A DNA stretch of 64,000 nt from Fusobacterium varium (GTDB lineage: Bacteria; Fusobacteriota; Fusobacteriia; Fusobacteriales; Fusobacteriaceae). Below, in pieces: positions 2,110-27,956 of this stretch; the first letter of the stretch is position 1, and the number at the start of each line of letters is the position of its first letter. The position numbers were made by a program, and so were the translations under genes. A model generated the notes under the pieces. That model did not search any database. It was not told where the DNA came from and worked only from the letters and a program-made list of their open reading frames with translations. The stretch covers positions 372,001-436,000 of the forward strand of contig LR134390.1 in the NCBI GenBank assembly GCA_900637705.1. Reading direction: 5' to 3'.

Positions 2110-3645
2110 ATGAGATTGGTGATAGGAGATAGAAGACTTACATTAGAAGATCTAATTAATATTACAAGAAAAGGTTATAAGATAGAAATCTCAGAAAAAG
2201 CATATGAAAGAGTAGCAGCAGCCAGAGAACTTGTAGATAGATATGTAAAAGAAAAAAAAGTATCTTATGGAATTACTACAGGATTTGGAAAATTTTCAGA
2301 TACAGTTATTTCAGAAGAGGAAACAGGAGTGCTTCAGAAAAACCTTATAATGAGCCATTCATGTGGAGTAGGTAATCCTCTTCCAGTGGATATGGCAAAA
2401 GGAATAATGCTTCTTAGAATAGTAAATTTATCTAAAGGACATTCAGGAGTAAGAAAAATAGTTCTTGATACATTGGTAGATATGCTCAATAAAGATGTTA
2501 CTCCATTTATTCCGGAAAAAGGTTCACTAGGAGCATCAGGAGATTTGGCACCATTATCACATATGGTATTAGTAATGCTTGGTATGGGAAAAGCATATGT
2601 AAATGGAGAGCTTTTAGATGGAGCAGAGGCTATGAAAAAAGCAGGAGTTCCTATTCTAGAGGAACTTTCTTCTAAAGAGGGATTAGCACTTATCAATGGA
2701 ACTCAGGTAATGACTTCAATTGGAGCACATGTAACATATGATGCAATCAATCTTATGAAACATCTGGATATTGCAGGAGCTCTTACAATGGAAGCTTTAA
2801 ATGGAATAACTTGTGCATTTGATTCTAGAGTTCATGAAGTGAGAGGACATCAAGGACAAATAAAGACAGCAGAGAATTTTAGAAATATTCTTGCAGAAAG
2901 CAAATGTACAACTAAGCAGGGAGAAATGAGAACTCAAGATCCATATACACTGAGATGTATTCCACAAATACATGGAGCAAGTAAAGATGCTCTTGAATAT
3001 GTAAGAGAGAAAGTTGAAATAGAAATGGAAGCAGTAACAGATAATCCGATAATTTTCTGTGATACAGATGATGTTATTTCAGGAGGGAACTTTCATGGAC
3101 AACCTATGGCACTTCCATTTGATTTTTTAGGAATAGCAATATCAGAAATGGCAAATGTTTCAGAGAGGAGAATTGAAAGACTTGTAAATCCAAGCCTAAA
3201 TTGTGGACTTCCAGCATTTTTGGTTGAAAATGGTGGTGTGAATTCTGGATTTATGATAGTTCAATATAGTGCAGCTTCTCTTGTATCAGAAAATAAAGTT
3301 TTGGCTCACCCAGCTTCAGTGGATTCTATACCATCTTCAGCAAATCAGGAAGATCATGTATCTATGGGAACTATAGCAGCTAGAAAAGCAGGAGAGATAT
3401 TAAAAAATGCAAGAAAAGTAATAGCTATGGAGATTTTATCAGCCTGCCAAGGAATAGACCTCAAAAAAGTAAATAAAAATCTTGGACTTGGAACTGAAAA
3501 AGCATATACAGCAGTAAGAGAAATAGTATCATATTATGATAAAGACAGAGTTATGAATATAGATATCAATGCTGTAGAAACATTAATAGAAAAAAACAGT
3601 ATAGTAGAAAATGTAGAAAAAGTTATTGGAGAATTAAAAATATAG
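2110..3645 (+). CDS. hutH: Histidine ammonia-lyase
   Basis: The 511-residue enzyme removes ammonia from L-histidine to give urocanate, the first step of histidine degradation, in the cytoplasm. Ala142-Ser143-Gly144 in GSLGASGDLAPLSH forms the MIO electrophile characteristic of the family, and YGITTGFG at 53-60 carries the catalytic tyrosine. Length matches bacterial HutH (about 510). The start is set by TAGGAGG upstream of the ATG. It lies 35 bases after the permease and 11 before hutU, so all are almost certainly co-transcribed. Confidence 0.97.
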   Translation: MRLVIGDRRLTLEDLINITRKGYKIEISEKAYERVAAARELVDRYVKEKKVSYGITTGFGKFSDTVISEEETGVLQKNLIMSHSCGVGNPLPVDMAKGIMLLRIVNLSKGHSGVRKIVLDTLVDMLNKDVTPFIPEKGSLGASGDLAPLSHMVLVMLGMGKAYVNGELLDGAEAMKKAGVPILEELSSKEGLALINGTQVMTSIGAHVTYDAINLMKHLDIAGALTMEALNGITCAFDSRVHEVRGHQGQIKTAENFRNILAESKCTTKQGEMRTQDPYTLRCIPQIHGASKDALEYVREKVEIEMEAVTDNPIIFCDTDDVISGGNFHGQPMALPFDFLGIAISEMANVSERRIERLVNPSLNCGLPAFLVENGGVNSGFMIVQYSAASLVSENKVLAHPASVDSIPSSANQEDHVSMGTIAARKAGEILKNARKVIAMEILSACQGIDLKKVNKNLGLGTEKAYTAVREIVSYYDKDRVMNIDINAVETLIEKNSIVENVEKVIGELKI

Positions 3646-3656
3646 GGGGATGTAAA

Positions 3657-5687
3657 ATGATAAACAAAGACATATTTAATGCAATGACAATAAAACTGGC
3701 AGCTCAAGATATACCAGAAAAAATGCCTGAAATGGATCCTAAAATAAGAAGGGCTCCCAAAAGGGTAGTACATCTGGAAAAAGATGAAATAGAATTAGCA
3801 CTAAAAAATGCTTTAAGATATATACCTGAAGAATATCATGAAAGACTGGCACCAGAATTTTTAAATGAATTAATGGAGCATGGAAGAATATATGGATATA
3901 GATTCAGACCAGAAGGAAGAATTTATGGAAAACCTATTGATGAATACAAAGGGAAATGTGTAGAAGCTAAAGCAATGCAGGTGATGATAGATAATAATCT
4001 TGATTTTGAAATAGCTCTTTATCCTTATGAATTAGTTACTTATGGAGAAACAGGACAGGTATGCCAAAACTGGATGCAGTACCTGCTTATAAAAAAATAT
4101 CTTGAAAATCTTACTCAGGATCAAACATTAGTAGTAGCATCAGGACATCCTACAGGATTATTCAGATCAAATCCATATGCTCCAAGAGCTATAATAACTA
4201 ATGCACTTATGGTAGGGGCATTTGATGATTATGATAACTGGGCAAGAGCAGCAGCTATTGGAGTAGCTAATTATGGGCAAATGACAGCTGGTGGCTGGAT
4301 GTACATAGGACCTCAGGGAATAGTACATGGAACTTATTCAACAATACTTAATGCAGCAAGACTTTTCTGTGGAGTGGCAAAAGACGGAGATCTTACAGGA
4401 AAATTATTTGTTACTTCTGGATTAGGAGGAATGAGTGGAGCACAAGGAAAGGCTACTGTAATTGCTAAAGGAGTAGGAATAATAGCAGAAGTAGATATTT
4501 CTAGAATACATACAAGGCTTGAACAAGGCTGGATAGATAAAATAGCTTGGACTCCAGAAGAAGCATTTAAGATGGCAAAAGAGAAACAAGAGGCTAAAGT
4601 TCCCTTTGCAATAGCATTTCATGGAAATATAGTAGACCTTCTTGAATATGCTGATAAAAATAATAAACATATAGATCTTCTTTCAGATCAGACATCATGT
4701 CATGCTGTATATGATGGTGGATATTGTCCAGTAGGAATAACATTTGAAGAAAGAACAAGATTATTAGCAGAAGATAGAGAAACTTTTAATAAACTTGTAG
4801 ACGAAACATTAAAAAGACATTATGAAGTTATTAAAAAATTAACAGCTAAGGGAGTATATTTCTTTGATTATGGAAATAGTTTTCTAAAATCTATTTATGA
4901 CATAGGGATTAAAGAAATATCTAAAAATGGAAGAGATGATAAAGGTGGTTTTGTATTCCCTTCATATGTGGAGGATATATTAGGACCAGAGTTATTTGAT
5001 TATGGATATGGACCTTTCAGATGGGTGTGTCTGTCTGGTAAAAAAGAAGATTTATTAAAAACTGACCATGCAGCTCTTGAACTTGTTGATCCAGAAAGAA
5101 GATACCAAGATAGAGATAACTATATGTGGATAAAAGATGCTGATAAAAATGGACTTGTAGTAGGAACACAAGCAAGAATATTTTATCAAGATGCAATGAG
5201 CAGAACAAGAGTAGCTCTAAAATTTAATGAAATGGTAAGAAATGGAGAAATAGGACCAGTTATGTTAGGAAGGGACCATCATGATGTATCGGGAACTGAC
5301 TCACCTTTTAGAGAAACATCAAATATAAAAGATGGAAGCAATATAATGGCAGATATGGCAACTCAATGTTTTGCAGGAAATGCAGCAAGAGGAATGACTA
5401 TGATAGCTCTTCATAATGGAGGAGGAGTAGGAATAGGAAAATCCATTAATGGAGGATTTGGAATGGTTCTTGATGGAAGTCACAGAGTTGATGAAATACT
5501 TATGCAGGCTATGCCTTGGGACGTAATGGGAGGAGTAGCCAGAAGAGCATGGGCTAGAAATCCACATTCAATAGAAACAGTAATTGAGTATAATAATGAT
5601 AATAGGGGAACAGACCATATTACGCTTCCATATATTGCTAATGATAATTTGATTAAAAAACTTGTTGATGAAAAATTAAATAAATAA
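3657..5687 (+). CDS. hutU: Urocanate hydratase (urocanase, long form)
   Basis: It converts urocanate to 4-imidazolone-5-propionate using tightly bound NAD+. At 676 residues it belongs to the long urocanase type rather than the roughly 555-residue proteobacterial type. Recognisable stretches include GQMTAGGWMYIGPQG, the glycine-rich SGLGGMSGAQGKA nucleotide-binding region near residue 255 and GYGPFRWVCLSG near residue 455. A GGGGGAT site supports the ATG. The gene starts 11 bases after hutH and is followed 23 bases later by hutI, giving the order of the pathway. Confidence 0.97.
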   Translation: MINKDIFNAMTIKLAAQDIPEKMPEMDPKIRRAPKRVVHLEKDEIELALKNALRYIPEEYHERLAPEFLNELMEHGRIYGYRFRPEGRIYGKPIDEYKGKCVEAKAMQVMIDNNLDFEIALYPYELVTYGETGQVCQNWMQYLLIKKYLENLTQDQTLVVASGHPTGLFRSNPYAPRAIITNALMVGAFDDYDNWARAAAIGVANYGQMTAGGWMYIGPQGIVHGTYSTILNAARLFCGVAKDGDLTGKLFVTSGLGGMSGAQGKATVIAKGVGIIAEVDISRIHTRLEQGWIDKIAWTPEEAFKMAKEKQEAKVPFAIAFHGNIVDLLEYADKNNKHIDLLSDQTSCHAVYDGGYCPVGITFEERTRLLAEDRETFNKLVDETLKRHYEVIKKLTAKGVYFFDYGNSFLKSIYDIGIKEISKNGRDDKGGFVFPSYVEDILGPELFDYGYGPFRWVCLSGKKEDLLKTDHAALELVDPERRYQDRDNYMWIKDADKNGLVVGTQARIFYQDAMSRTRVALKFNEMVRNGEIGPVMLGRDHHDVSGTDSPFRETSNIKDGSNIMADMATQCFAGNAARGMTMIALHNGGGVGIGKSINGGFGMVLDGSHRVDEILMQAMPWDVMGGVARRAWARNPHSIETVIEYNNDNRGTDHITLPYIANDNLIKKLVDEKLNK

Positions 5688-23244: not shown

Positions 23245-24852
23245 TTAATATAAAGCAATATGTCCATCTGTTCTAGGTTCTGTTCCACCTACAAGAACTC
23301 CATTTTCCATTCTCCAGATGATTTCTCCTCTTCCCATCATCAATGGATCATGCAGAACTTTTATATCATGTCCCATAGCTGCAAGCTCATATGCTATATG
23401 CTCAGGAACTCCATGTTCCAACTCTATATTTTTCTTTCCTACCCACTGCCATCTTGGTGCATCTAATGCTGACTGTGGATTCATTAGGAAATCTACTGTA
23501 TTAGTTACTACCTGTACATGTCCCTGTGGCTGCATAAATCCTCCCATTACTCCAAATGGACCAACTGCTTTTCCATCTTTTCCAAGGAATCCTGGAATAA
23601 TTGTATGATATGGTTTCTTTCCTGGTCCTACACAGTTTGCACTTTCTAAATCAAGGTTAAAGTTATTTCCTCTGTTATGAAGGGCTATTCCTGTTCCTGG
23701 TACTACCATTCCAGAACCAAATCCCATATAGTTGCTTTGAATATATGATATCATATTTCCTTCATTATCTGCTGCTGCAAGATATACAGTTCCTCCACAG
23801 AATGGATCTCCTGCTTCTGGCATTATTGCTGTATTTCCTATAAGTTTTGCTCTATCCTCTGCATATGCTTTAGATAAAAGCTGCTCAACTGTTACTTTCA
23901 TAAATCTAGGATCAGCTACATATTTTTGTACATCTACAAAGGCAAGTTTCATTGCTTCTATCATTGTATGGTATGATCTTACTGTTTCTCTCGCTTCAAA
24001 CTGGAATCTATCTAAGATATTAAGCGCCATAAGAGCACTTATTCCATGACCATTTGGTGGAAGTTCATATACATCATATCCATGATATTTTACAGAAATA
24101 GGTTCTACCCATTCTGCTTCAAATTCTTCCAAGTCATCTTTTCTTATATATCCATTATATTTTTTAGAGAATGCATCTATTTTATCTGCTAGTTCTCCTT
24201 TATAAAAAGCATCTGCATATGTATCTCCTATCATTTCAAGAGTATCTGCATGATCTGGAAGCCTTACTACATCTCCTATCTCAGGGCATTTTCCATCTTT
24301 AGTAAAAGTTTCAAACCAGTATTTGAATTCTTCTCCACTTTCTTTTCCAAAATTAACAGCAGCTTTTTTCCACAGTTTAGCAACATTCACAGGAACAGCA
24401 TATCCTTCCCTTGCTAATTTTACTGCTGGAGCTACAACTTCACTCAAAGGAAGCTTACCAAATTTTTTGCTTAACTCTGCCCATGCTTTAGGTATTCCTG
24501 GTACATTTACAGGAGTAAAGCCATATTTAGGCATTTCTTTTAACCCTTTATTCAATAAATCCTGTGCTTCAAGAAGTTTTGGTGAAGGACCACTAGCATT
24601 AAGTCCATACATTTTATTGTTTACACTGAGAATAGCAAATCCATCTCCTCCTATACCATTACCTGTAGGCTCTACAACAGTAAGAGCAGCAGCAGTAGCA
24701 ATAGCAGCATCTATTGCATTTCCTCCTTTTTTAAGTATTTCAAGTCCAGCTTGTGCAGCAAGTGGAGATCCAGTTGCTACCATACCGTTTTTAGCGTACA
24801 TCACATTTCTTCTTGATGGATATGGATAAATAGTAGAATCAAATTTTAACAT
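23245..24852 (-). CDS. Gamma-glutamyltransferase-family protein (cytoplasmic YwrD type)
   Basis: A 535-residue Ntn-hydrolase that in this family hydrolyses or transfers the gamma-glutamyl group of glutathione and related peptides after self-cleavage. The large-subunit region has KKGGNAIDAAIATAAALTVVEPTGNGIGGDGF. The cleavage and nucleophile site is the threonine of PFCGGTVYLAAADNEGNMIS near residue 355, and GFGSGMVVPGTGIALHNRG follows. There is no signal peptide, so it is placed in the cytoplasm like B. subtilis YwrD. It is followed upstream in the same direction by a membrane protein and a peptide-binding lipoprotein, suggesting uptake and cleavage of gamma-glutamyl peptides. GGAGGAATAAG precedes the ATG. 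Confidence 0.88.
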   Translation of the reverse strand: MLKFDSTIYPYPSRRNVMYAKNGMVATGSPLAAQAGLEILKKGGNAIDAAIATAAALTVVEPTGNGIGGDGFAILSVNNKMYGLNASGPSPKLLEAQDLLNKGLKEMPKYGFTPVNVPGIPKAWAELSKKFGKLPLSEVVAPAVKLAREGYAVPVNVAKLWKKAAVNFGKESGEEFKYWFETFTKDGKCPEIGDVVRLPDHADTLEMIGDTYADAFYKGELADKIDAFSKKYNGYIRKDDLEEFEAEWVEPISVKYHGYDVYELPPNGHGISALMALNILDRFQFEARETVRSYHTMIEAMKLAFVDVQKYVADPRFMKVTVEQLLSKAYAEDRAKLIGNTAIMPEAGDPFCGGTVYLAAADNEGNMISYIQSNYMGFGSGMVVPGTGIALHNRGNNFNLDLESANCVGPGKKPYHTIIPGFLGKDGKAVGPFGVMGGFMQPQGHVQVVTNTVDFLMNPQSALDAPRWQWVGKKNIELEHGVPEHIAYELAAMGHDIKVLHDPLMMGRGEIIWRMENGVLVGGTEPRTDGHIALY

Positions 24853-24906: not shown

Positions 24907-26086
24907 TTAAAGAAATTCAACAAATATTCCTGCAATAATGATAGAAATAGTTGTTACTGAAGCAAGTCCTGCAACAACATATGCTGGAATTATTCTCTTA
25001 AGTATAGCATTTTCTCTTCTTCATCATCTGTAAGAGCAGTAGCTATTTCGTTAGCAATAAGATATGTAGCTGGGAATCCTAGAAGCTGAGCCATAGCAAT
25101 ACCCATCGCAAGATCTCTTGAACCAACTATTTTCCATGTAGGAAGTAAATAAATCAAGATATATGTTCCAACTACAAATGCAGCAAAGATTAATAATAAC
25201 TGGAATCCTAAAGTAGTAAGATCTCCAAAAGATATTTTAGCAAGAGATGGAATCAAACTTGCAAAAACTGCAAATGAAAGGAATCCAGAAACTTTTGCTT
25301 TATCAAGAATAGCATTAGGAACAGCTCCACTGTAAGAAAGTATAGTTCCTAATAAAAGTGCAGTGATACTTGCATTAAGCCCAGTTTTTTCTTGAATTAA
25401 TCTTGAAATAAAAGCGGCAGCAGCAGCAATAGCCATACAAATAAAAGAAGTGAAATATTTTTCATTCTTTTAGCAAAAGTTACTTTAGTTTCTTTAACAG
25501 CAGCCTTTTTTTCATCAGTAGAAGCTTGAATTTTACCAGCTCTAAACTGTTCTAGAACTTTTCTTCCCTCTCTCATACCAAAGTATGAAGCAGGTGGAGT
25601 TCCAACAAATTTTTGAATAGCATAAACAAGAGTACCAAGTGCAGCAACAGTTTGGAATCCTTTTTCCATAGCAGCACCAGTCATTATCTGAGTTGCGATT
25701 ATTCCACCATTGATGATAGGGATAGAAACAACAGCAGCCTCTTTTCCTACTAGAGGAATGACTGCAAAAACAGCAATAATTCCGACTATCATAGAAATAA
25801 TAGCCATAACAACAGTTCTCCATTCATCGATGAGTTCTTTGATGTTGATCATAGTTCCCATATGGAAAATAAGTAAAGGAGCACTCCAAGCAGCAGATTG
25901 AGATAATCCTGCTTTTTGAATCATATCAGCTGGAATCATTTTAGTCATAAACCCAACTAAAAACAAAAACATTGCAACAAAAACTGATGAAAGTTTAGCT
26001 TTTGTAAAAACTCCTAAAAAATCTCCTATTGCAAAGAATAGTACCGTCAAAAATAAAAATAAAAACATGTAACCTGCATTCGTCAT
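24907..26086 (-). CDS. Polytopic membrane protein, possible transporter (frame broken twice)
   Basis: The start is the ATG at 26086 after AAGGGGG. Two single-base losses, in T5 at 25458-25462 and T4 at 25010-25013, split it; repair gives about 393 residues ending ...AGIFVEFL at 24907-24909. About ten membrane segments are seen (GYMFLFLFLTVLFFAIGDFLG, LSSVFVAMFLFLVGFM) with two similar halves, and a charged loop (KIQASTDEKKAAVKE) near residue 200. The length and layout remind me of DUF3100-type proteins, but I am not sure. It lies between gamma-glutamyltransferase and an oligopeptide-binding lipoprotein in one operon, so a role in peptide or amino-acid transport is inferred. Confidence 0.7.
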
Positions 26087-26124: not shown

Positions 26125-27642
26125 TTAAAACTCAATATCTTTTATTACATGGAAATATGTAGATCTGAATTTAAAGTTTTTGATATTTTTTCTCATTACC
26201 ATGTTATCCATTGAATAATAAAGAGGAACACAAGCAATATCATCTTGAATCATTTGCTGAGCTATTTCATAGTTACGCTTTCTTTCTACTGGATCAGAAG
26301 TAGCTCTTCCAGCCTCTATATATTTATCAAGTTCAGGATTTTTATATCTTCCATGGTTTCCAGCTGCTCCAGCAGAACTGCTGTGATATAAAGGGAAAAG
26401 GATATTATCAGAATCTCCAGTTCCTCCACTCCAACCTCCAAGTTTCATTTCAAAGTTTGCATTAGCAAGATCTTGAAGATAAGTAGCCCATGCCACAACT
26501 TCTATTTCAAGTTCTAATCCTATTTCTTTAAGATTTGATTGAATGATTTGTGCTACCTGCACTCTTGATGGATTATCATTAGTTATTATTTTTAACTTAG
26601 TTCCAGTTAAACCGTTTTCTTCAACTATCTGTTTAGCTTTTTCAATATCTCTAGGAAGTCCAGTTACTTTATCTGAATATCCAAAAGCCACATTACTAAC
26701 AGGTGAATTTGCTTCGATAGCCAGTCCATTATAGATAGCTTCAATGATACCTTTTTTATCTATAGCCATAGCAATAGCTTCTCTAAGAGCCTTATTATGA
26801 AATTTTTCTTTATCAAAGTTAAATGTTATAGATTCTGTTAATACTACTGGTTTACTTACTATAACAAGATCTGGGTTATTTTTAAGATTTTCCAAATCAA
26901 TAGGTGCTACTGTATAGGCAATATCCACATCTTTAGCTTCTAATGCCATAGCTCTTGCAGTATTTTCAGTTATAGTTTTAACTACAAGCTTGTCATATTT
27001 AGGTGCTCCCTGAAAATGATCTTTGAAAGATTCTAGAATAATCTGTTCTCCAGTTCCCCATTCAATAAGTTTGAAAGGTCCAGTTCCGATACCAGCTATA
27101 GAAAGATCATCTTTTTGTTCTTTTACACTTCTTTCATTTAATATAGATGTTCTTGGGTGTGCAAGATTATACAATATTGATGAAAAAGGTTTTGATAAAC
27201 TTATTTTTACAGTATAGTCATCAAGAGCTTCAGCCCCTGAAATAGGTTCAACCATGACCATACTTGCTGGTTTATTTTTCATTCTATTAATACTGAATAC
27301 TACATCTGAAGCTTTTAATTCATCACCATTATGGAATTTAACACCTTTTTTCAGATTAAATACAAGTGTAGTTGGATCTTTGAATTCCCAGCTTTCAGCT
27401 AGTTCAGGAATGATGTTTCCATTTTCATCTATTTCCACAAGACTGTTAAAAATTTGTTGAGACATTATTCCACCAATTACTTCTGAGTACATATGAGGAT
27501 CCACACCTTTTGGTTTTCCATTCAATGCAACTCTTAAAATTTGTTCTTTCTTTGCTTTTTCACCTTTTGCTCCCTTTTCTTCTTTATCAGAACAACCAAC
27601 AAGTCCTAATATTAGCAGAAAAATAAAAAATACTTTTTTCAT
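26125..27642 (-). CDS. ABC transporter substrate-binding lipoprotein, peptide type (SBP family 5)
   Basis: The 505-residue protein has a lipoprotein signal (FLLILGLVGC, lipidated Cys17), a charged linker, and the OppA/DppA/GsiB fold: RVALNGKPKGVDPHMYSEVIGG at the start, EIDENGNIIPELAESWEFKDPTTLVFNLKKGVKFHNGDE, and REAIAMAIDKKGIIEAIYNGLA. It would deliver di- or oligopeptides, perhaps glutathione, to an ABC permease. No permease or ATPase gene is nearby, so it must share one encoded elsewhere. It opens the operon with the gamma-glutamyltransferase and is preceded by a 260-base leader with a short ORF, hairpin and terminator. Confidence 0.9.
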   Translation of the reverse strand: MKKVFFIFLLILGLVGCSDKEEKGAKGEKAKKEQILRVALNGKPKGVDPHMYSEVIGGIMSQQIFNSLVEIDENGNIIPELAESWEFKDPTTLVFNLKKGVKFHNGDELKASDVVFSINRMKNKPASMVMVEPISGAEALDDYTVKISLSKPFSSILYNLAHPRTSILNERSVKEQKDDLSIAGIGTGPFKLIEWGTGEQIILESFKDHFQGAPKYDKLVVKTITENTARAMALEAKDVDIAYTVAPIDLENLKNNPDLVIVSKPVVLTESITFNFDKEKFHNKALREAIAMAIDKKGIIEAIYNGLAIEANSPVSNVAFGYSDKVTGLPRDIEKAKQIVEENGLTGTKLKIITNDNPSRVQVAQIIQSNLKEIGLELEIEVVAWATYLQDLANANFEMKLGGWSGGTGDSDNILFPLYHSSSAGAAGNHGRYKNPELDKYIEAGRATSDPVERKRNYEIAQQMIQDDIACVPLYYSMDNMVMRKNIKNFKFRSTYFHVIKDIEF

Positions 27643-27660: not shown

Positions 27661-27763
27661 TTTTAATAAAAAAAGCTTAGGTCTATAAAAATATAGAATA
27701 GGCCTAAGCTTAATAACTTTTTATCCCAAGCCTCTTTGTATTTTGTATACTGAAAACAGGCTT
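27661..27763 (-). promoter_or_regulatory. Attenuator-like leader: hairpin plus terminator before the peptide-binding lipoprotein gene
   Basis: On the minus strand, AAGCCT (27758-27763) pairs with AGGCTT (27728-27733). This is followed by a 13-base stem, TAGGCCTAAGCTT complement arms at 27673-27685 and 27699-27711 with one mismatch, and T7. The terminator ends about 20 bases before the Shine-Dalgarno site, inside the transcribed leader. No known riboswitch motif or T-box sequence was recognised. Confidence 0.6.
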
Positions 27764-27805
27764 GATTAACATAAGAAATTTTATGTAAAAAATCAGCCCT
27801 TTAAA

Positions 27806-27865
27806 TTATGATATGAGTAGTATATATGTATATATTGTAACTATTTTTAAAGTGTTGCTTAACAT
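27806..27865 (-). CDS. Possible 19-residue leader peptide
   Basis: An ATG at 27863-27865 with AAGGAG seven bases upstream starts a 19-codon frame, MLSNTLKIVTIYTYILLIS, ending in TAA. It lies between the promoter at 27907-27935 and the hairpin/terminator at 27661-27763. Placement and ribosome site fit a leader peptide of an attenuator. There is no simple run of one amino acid, though Ile, Thr and Tyr are frequent. It could also be a chance frame. Confidence 0.4.
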   Translation of the reverse strand: MLSNTLKIVTIYTYILLIS

Positions 27866-27906
27866 AACTAACTCCTTTTTTAATTAAAATTTTGTTTATG
27901 GTATTA

Positions 27907-27956
27907 ATAGTACTACTTTTTTTATTATGTGTCAATATTTTTTTATTGTAGTACTA
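27907..27956 (-). promoter_or_regulatory. Promoter with paired operator-like repeats for the peptide-binding/GGT operon
   Basis: Minus-strand TTGACA (27930-27935), 17-base spacer, TACTAT (27907-27912). The nonamer TAGTACTAC at 27908-27916 (plus strand) overlaps the -10, and its perfect inverse GTAGTACTA at 27948-27956 lies just upstream of the -35, centres 40 bases apart. Each is itself built on the palindrome AGTACT. A looping or paired-dimer repressor is suggested. The upstream copy overlaps the end of the DUF554 gene. Confidence 0.7.

Follow-up and report, generated by a model that had tools for sequence, protein, structure and literature searches.

The window, by which we mean the whole 64,000-nucleotide stretch of Fusobacterium varium DNA analysed here, carries on its minus strand a gene for an SBP family 5 lipoprotein (26125..27642; Pfam PF00496, 2.2e-94), followed by genes for a transporter-like membrane protein (24990..26086) and a gamma-glutamyltranspeptidase (GGT; 23245..24852; PF01019, 4.9e-149, and TIGR00066 above cut-off). 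The second of these is a single frame of 393-394 codons (393-394 aa) in three congeners, but two 1-nt deletions in A/G-rich runs interrupt it in the window, reflecting either real decay or an assembly error. A DUF554 gene lies upstream, and the gap between it and the SBP gene contains a leader, single-copy in its own genome. Its promoter, 19-codon ORF and strong intrinsic terminator all lie on the minus strand, in the arrangement expected of an attenuator ahead of a structural gene.

An earlier note on this DNA, made from the sequence alone, had described a consensus promoter, a 19-codon frame with a good ribosome site, and a strong terminator with T7 just before the lipoprotein, and all three are borne out. 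The promoter (27907..27935) has a -35 box TTGACA at 27935-27930 and a -10 box TACTAT at 27912-27907, with a 17-nt spacer and 10/12 consensus matches; a promoter scan alone is at chance level (17 sites vs 14.7 expected), and the element is nearly identical across the three congeners, with 3-14% divergence among the four species. The leader ORF, MLSNTLKIVTIYTYILLIS, extends from an ATG at 27865 to a TAA at 27806 and is preceded by a Shine-Dalgarno sequence AAAGGAG (27878-27872); start, stop, frame and Shine-Dalgarno are kept in all four species, with a stop codon of either TAA or TGA and a single in-frame 3-nt indel. The terminator occupies 27711-27673 and, with its T7 at 27675-27669, spans 27711-27669. 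Because only ~25 nt separate it from the SBP start codon at 27642, any transcript into the SBP operon must cross it. Folding of the whole leader gives z = -2.5. An inverted repeat (TAGTACTAC ... GTAGTACTA, 27908-27956) flanks the promoter, with an invariant upstream arm that overlaps the DUF554 stop codon; it is a possible operator.

The earlier note had also seen a small stem of 6 bp. The CAAGCCT/AGGCTTG pairing is present, but it is about 8-10 bp long and belongs to a larger network, in which six minus-strand segments pair as a chain: 1:2, 3:4 and 5:6 make up the terminator form, and 2:3 and 4:5 the antiterminator form. Segment 1 (CAACACTTTAAA, 27846..27857; segment sequence CAACaCUUUAAA) covers ORF codons 3-7 and pairs with segment 2 (TTTAAAGGGCTGATT, 27791..27805; UUUAAAGGGUUGAUU, where the window copy has a C instead of one U), which lies directly 3' of the stop codon and pairs with either 1 or 3. 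Segment 3 (AATCAAGCCT, 27758..27767; AAUCAAGCCU) pairs with 2 or 4, and segment 4 (AGGCTTGGG, 27725..27733; AGGCUUGGG) with 3 or 5. Segment 5 (AAGCTTAGGCCTAT, 27698..27711; AAGCUUAGGCCUAU) is the 5' arm of the terminator, of which CTTAGGCCT (27708-27700) pairs with segment 4, and segment 6 with the U run (27669..27686; AUAGACCUAAGCUU) is the 3' arm. Judging from the sequence, the mismatched C in the terminator stem is probably due to the need for segment 5 to pair with segment 4 as well.

These five mutually exclusive helices each fold alone in all four species, with energies of -11 to -12 kcal/mol for 2:3, -10 to -14 for 3:4, about -10 for 4:5, and -15 to -16 for 5:6. Helix 1:2 ranges from -7.8 to -8.9 kcal/mol in the relatives and is only -1.7 in the window copy. 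Of 2000 dinucleotide shuffles of the sequence above the terminator, 0-7 reach a chain of three links, and none reaches four links in the three species that possess such a chain; the window copy itself falls below the criterion at link four (1:2). Mutually exclusive terminator and antiterminator hairpins, placed such that ribosome position would select one, are found in the three congeners, with a weaker version in the window.

In each congener the leader occupies the same location, with 85-91% identity. Segments 1-6 diverge by 0-9%, compared with 13-33% at four-fold degenerate sites of the neighbouring genes, and variation is freer in mid-ORF and in the segment 4-5 spacer. The earlier note had named unconserved stems in related strains as one of the outcomes that would count against it, and conservation is what we find. 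RNAalifold applied to the four leaders detects no covariation and returns a single compromise structure.

A broader comparison was obtained with a covariance model (R1) built from the four SBP leaders only and searched against 98 genomes of the phylum. It matches ten sites in genus g3 (E 6e-7 to 1e-3 per genome), each between a short ORF and an ilvE, ilvD or BASS-family transporter gene, such that a model made without the other genera still finds the ilvE/ilvD/BASS leaders. The g3 leaders form the same helices with energies comparable to those of the SBP leaders, and their ORFs contain Ile runs, such as MNTKFKVNFLLILIIIISSMVWC, MNTNKKTLATLILIIIICSMV and MNKFKNMLTIIIIICFWVWI. An enlarged model, R2, adds more g3 leaders, ilvA and ilvB leaders in genus g8, and an ilvE leader in g13. 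The second R1 match in the window's own genome is a fluoride riboswitch (Rfam RF01734; L092 1537-1611, C1 about 2533236-2533310) ahead of a 392-aa antiporter-like gene, and was set aside as not being a relative; weak DNA matches in other genera were dismissed as short and AT-rich, and scans of the collection by protein and by pattern gave no matches.

Joint alignment of 14 leaders from the two genera shows TCAAGCCT in segment 3 to be invariant, and helix 5:6 to contain four compensated pairs, with 15 compensated cells vs 4.4 in shuffles. Segment 5 varies at four columns facing segment 4, almost only among letters that preserve pairing; helix 4:5 stays paired in 99% of cells, and the antiterminator is fully paired in 13 of the 14 leaders. 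This bears on a simpler account in which the terminator merely closes a small RNA or the transcript of DUF554, and the operon depends on weak constitutive readthrough. The end of DUF554 lies about 240 nt upstream and a terminated leader would have an sRNA-like size, as this account expects, but a promoter cannot fit downstream of the terminator, and the terminator's arm doubles as the antiterminator partner across the alignment; we regard it as very unlikely.

Three further leaders were seen in these genomes. In genus g8 (L121 about 1460-1640) an ORF with Trp codons, MLSYHKNNKNWIHWWF, and a terminator precede trpS, constituting a probable Trp attenuator whose homology to the ilv/SBP family is weak (E 6e-5). 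In g3 (L126 about 1450-1640) the ORF MTNYNLISKTTMMNMMPMGVGTKN, with a Met cluster, is followed by a terminator, and the contig ends before the gene. An Ile-rich ORF and terminator also lie ahead of ilvD in congener G018, which has ilvC (L136 about 3500-3840); because R2 does not match, this is perhaps an independent attenuator.

The influence of ribosome position on the choice between the two forms was calculated by folding the RNA downstream of a ribosome whose leading edge lies 15 nt beyond the first base in the P-site, with segment 6 not yet made. Without a ribosome, the three congeners fold 1:2 and 3:4. In this thermodynamic rather than kinetic treatment, a ribosome with its P-site at codons 1-15 gives P(4:5) of 0.72-0.95 in G025 and G026 and 0.33-0.81 in G027. 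Once the P-site has moved on to codon 17 (G025, whose ORF has 18 codons) or 18, P(4:5) is <=0.10 and 3:4 returns. The predicted switch in these three SBP leaders thus falls at codons 16-17, within Ile-Leu-Leu-Ile. The same calculation places the switch within the Ile run of the ilvE, ilvD and ilvA leaders, which supports applying the method to the SBP leaders, and at the end of an IIILI stretch in the ilvB leader; one BASS leader tested remains antiterminated. Once segment 6 is present, the completed terminator is favoured at equilibrium. The window copy (G000) shows the reverse of the expected trend, with P(4:5) of 0.04-0.35 with a ribosome in the ORF vs 0.58 without. Its segment 2 has C in place of U at 27796, a difference that disrupts 1:2 and displaces 2:3, and its segments 4 and 5 lie closer together; by this model the window's own copy of the attenuator is weakened.

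The leader peptides of the four species (MLSNTLKIVTIYTYILLIS, MLSNTLKKVIIYIHTLLIS, MVSNTLKTVIYIHILLIS and MSSNTLKTVIIYIHILLIS) have no homogeneous codon run, and the earlier note is literally correct that the peptide lacks a run of a single amino acid. It missed, however, that half of the post-start codons specify Ile, Leu or Val, namely 9 of 18 in the window (binomial p about 0.02) and 9 of 17-18 post-Met residues across the four species (p 0.014-0.022 against a local background of 25.5%, a modest signal given that the four sequences are related), and that an I-L-L-I-S block, at the calculated switch, occupies the place of I-I-I-I-S in the relatives. These two features suggest branched-chain aminoacyl-tRNA as the signal, which is our best inference and not a demonstration. 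The leader might instead respond to another cue, such as His or Tyr, a drug or nascent peptide that causes stalling, or the general speed of translation; this would fit with the absence of a homogeneous run among the mixed Ile/Leu/Tyr/His codons, with the invariant TACTCATATCAT ahead of the stop, and with the rarity of the CTC codon here (2.1 per 1000). Such a cue is nonetheless unlikely, given that the leaders are homologous to those with Ile runs, that Ile, Leu and Val make up half of the peptide in all four species, and that a BASS leader in G003 is similarly mixed (LILVVIILLILSSVV).

The lack of a T-box or known riboswitch motif reported in the earlier note is upheld by covariance searches. 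Neither the window leader nor representative homologous leaders match any riboswitch or amino-acid leader family of Rfam 15 at the gathering threshold, the window leader has only chance matches at gathering and permissive thresholds, and the T-box model does not match it. A ligand- or protein-binding riboswitch, with the 3:4 hairpin and its conserved loop as sensor and the ORF incidental, could explain why that loop (GTTTTCAGTATACAAAATAC) is near-invariant in the four species (0-5% divergence), beyond what a plain spacer needs; yet conservation of the loop does not extend to the homologous ilv leaders, matches to Rfam families are absent, and the homologues' ORF position, Ile runs and codon-dependent switch indicate translation. 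We consider a riboswitch improbable.

The layout of transcription attenuation that had been pointed out at this locus is strongly supported by the exclusive helices, shuffles, conservation and homologues, and the leader is very probably a his/ilv-like attenuator in which the ribosome governs transcription, from a Fusobacteriaceae family that otherwise controls branched-chain amino acid genes. From the computed anatomy, conservation, compensatory changes and homologues we infer ribosome stalling, the amino acids sensed and antitermination in vivo as follows. Transcription would begin shortly after the -10 box (27907) and run through the leader-peptide ORF. When charged tRNA for the Ile/Leu (and perhaps Val) codons is scarce, a ribosome slowed in the ORF would cover segment 1 and leave segment 2 free to pair with 3, so that 4 is available to 5, the terminator is blocked and the SBP-transporter-GGT operon is transcribed. 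A ribosome that reaches the stop codon would instead mask segment 2, allowing 3:4 and the 5:6 terminator to form, and without translation 1:2, 3:4 and 5:6 would form and transcription would likewise terminate.

The genomic context is partly in keeping with such a signal. A search for ilvC gave nothing in the window genome, G025 and G027, which fits a reliance on amino acid import, but G026 has the gene, so loss of the branched-chain pathway is not uniform. All three congeners have an ilvD match; the two inspected, in G026 and G027, adjoin by eye a separate transporter-like gene and have no attenuator match. We tentatively suggest, as a reading that may well prove too broad, that one portable attenuator scaffold is used across Fusobacteriaceae operons, with sensor codons exchanged to suit each: Ile for ilv genes, a branched-chain mixture for peptide uptake, and perhaps Trp for trpS and Met at other sites. 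In the window genus, loss of the branched-chain pathway would have been accompanied by a move of the scaffold from biosynthetic genes to peptide scavenging. On the attenuator reading itself, branched-chain amino acid supply would be linked to peptide uptake and GGT in this genus. The common scaffold would help to annotate many leaders of the family, and the leader is a clear example of a single RNA region held under two competing pairing constraints.

Among known systems, the his attenuator of enterobacteria (segments A-F) has the same topology, with 1:2, 3:4 and 5:6 opposed to 2:3 and 4:5 and with segment 1 within the leader ORF, but differs in sequence, phylum, codons and target genes. In the literature collection searched, no paper on leader-peptide attenuation in Fusobacteria was found; the ilv leaders may have been described earlier, for example in a survey of attenuation across bacteria that Lopatovskaya et al. 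reportedly made in 2010 (cited in PMC4833913). T-box riboswitches are alike in responding to amino-acid starvation by antitermination, and differ in that the leader gives no T-box match; a 2008 survey counted none in Fusobacteria/Thermotogae (PMC2494555), and the leader would give Fusobacteria a defined, testable amino-acid sensing RNA. In the ilvGMEDA, ilvBN and leu attenuators of E. coli and the branched-chain attenuators of S. aureus and Listeria (reviewed in PMC6123439; PMC5794164), an Ile/Leu/Val-rich leader peptide governs a terminator, as proposed here, but these precede biosynthetic genes, whereas the SBP leader precedes peptide uptake and GGT and has a shorter, less regular peptide. 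The ilvE, ilvD, BASS, ilvA and ilvB leaders of the other genera share the ORF placement and a scaffold (CAAGCCU, AGGCUUG, CUURRGYCU and the terminator) that is present in g3 and diverged in g8 and g13; theirs are mostly pure Ile runs before branched-chain genes, in contrast to the mixed codons of the window genus. The suggestion of a new leader type for peptide uptake thus holds for the placement of the SBP copy, which has no Rfam match, but not for the mechanism, which is classical, of the his/ilv type and akin to the Ile-run ilvE/ilvD attenuators; new here are a scaffold common to several genes and genera, and its position on a peptide-uptake/GGT operon.
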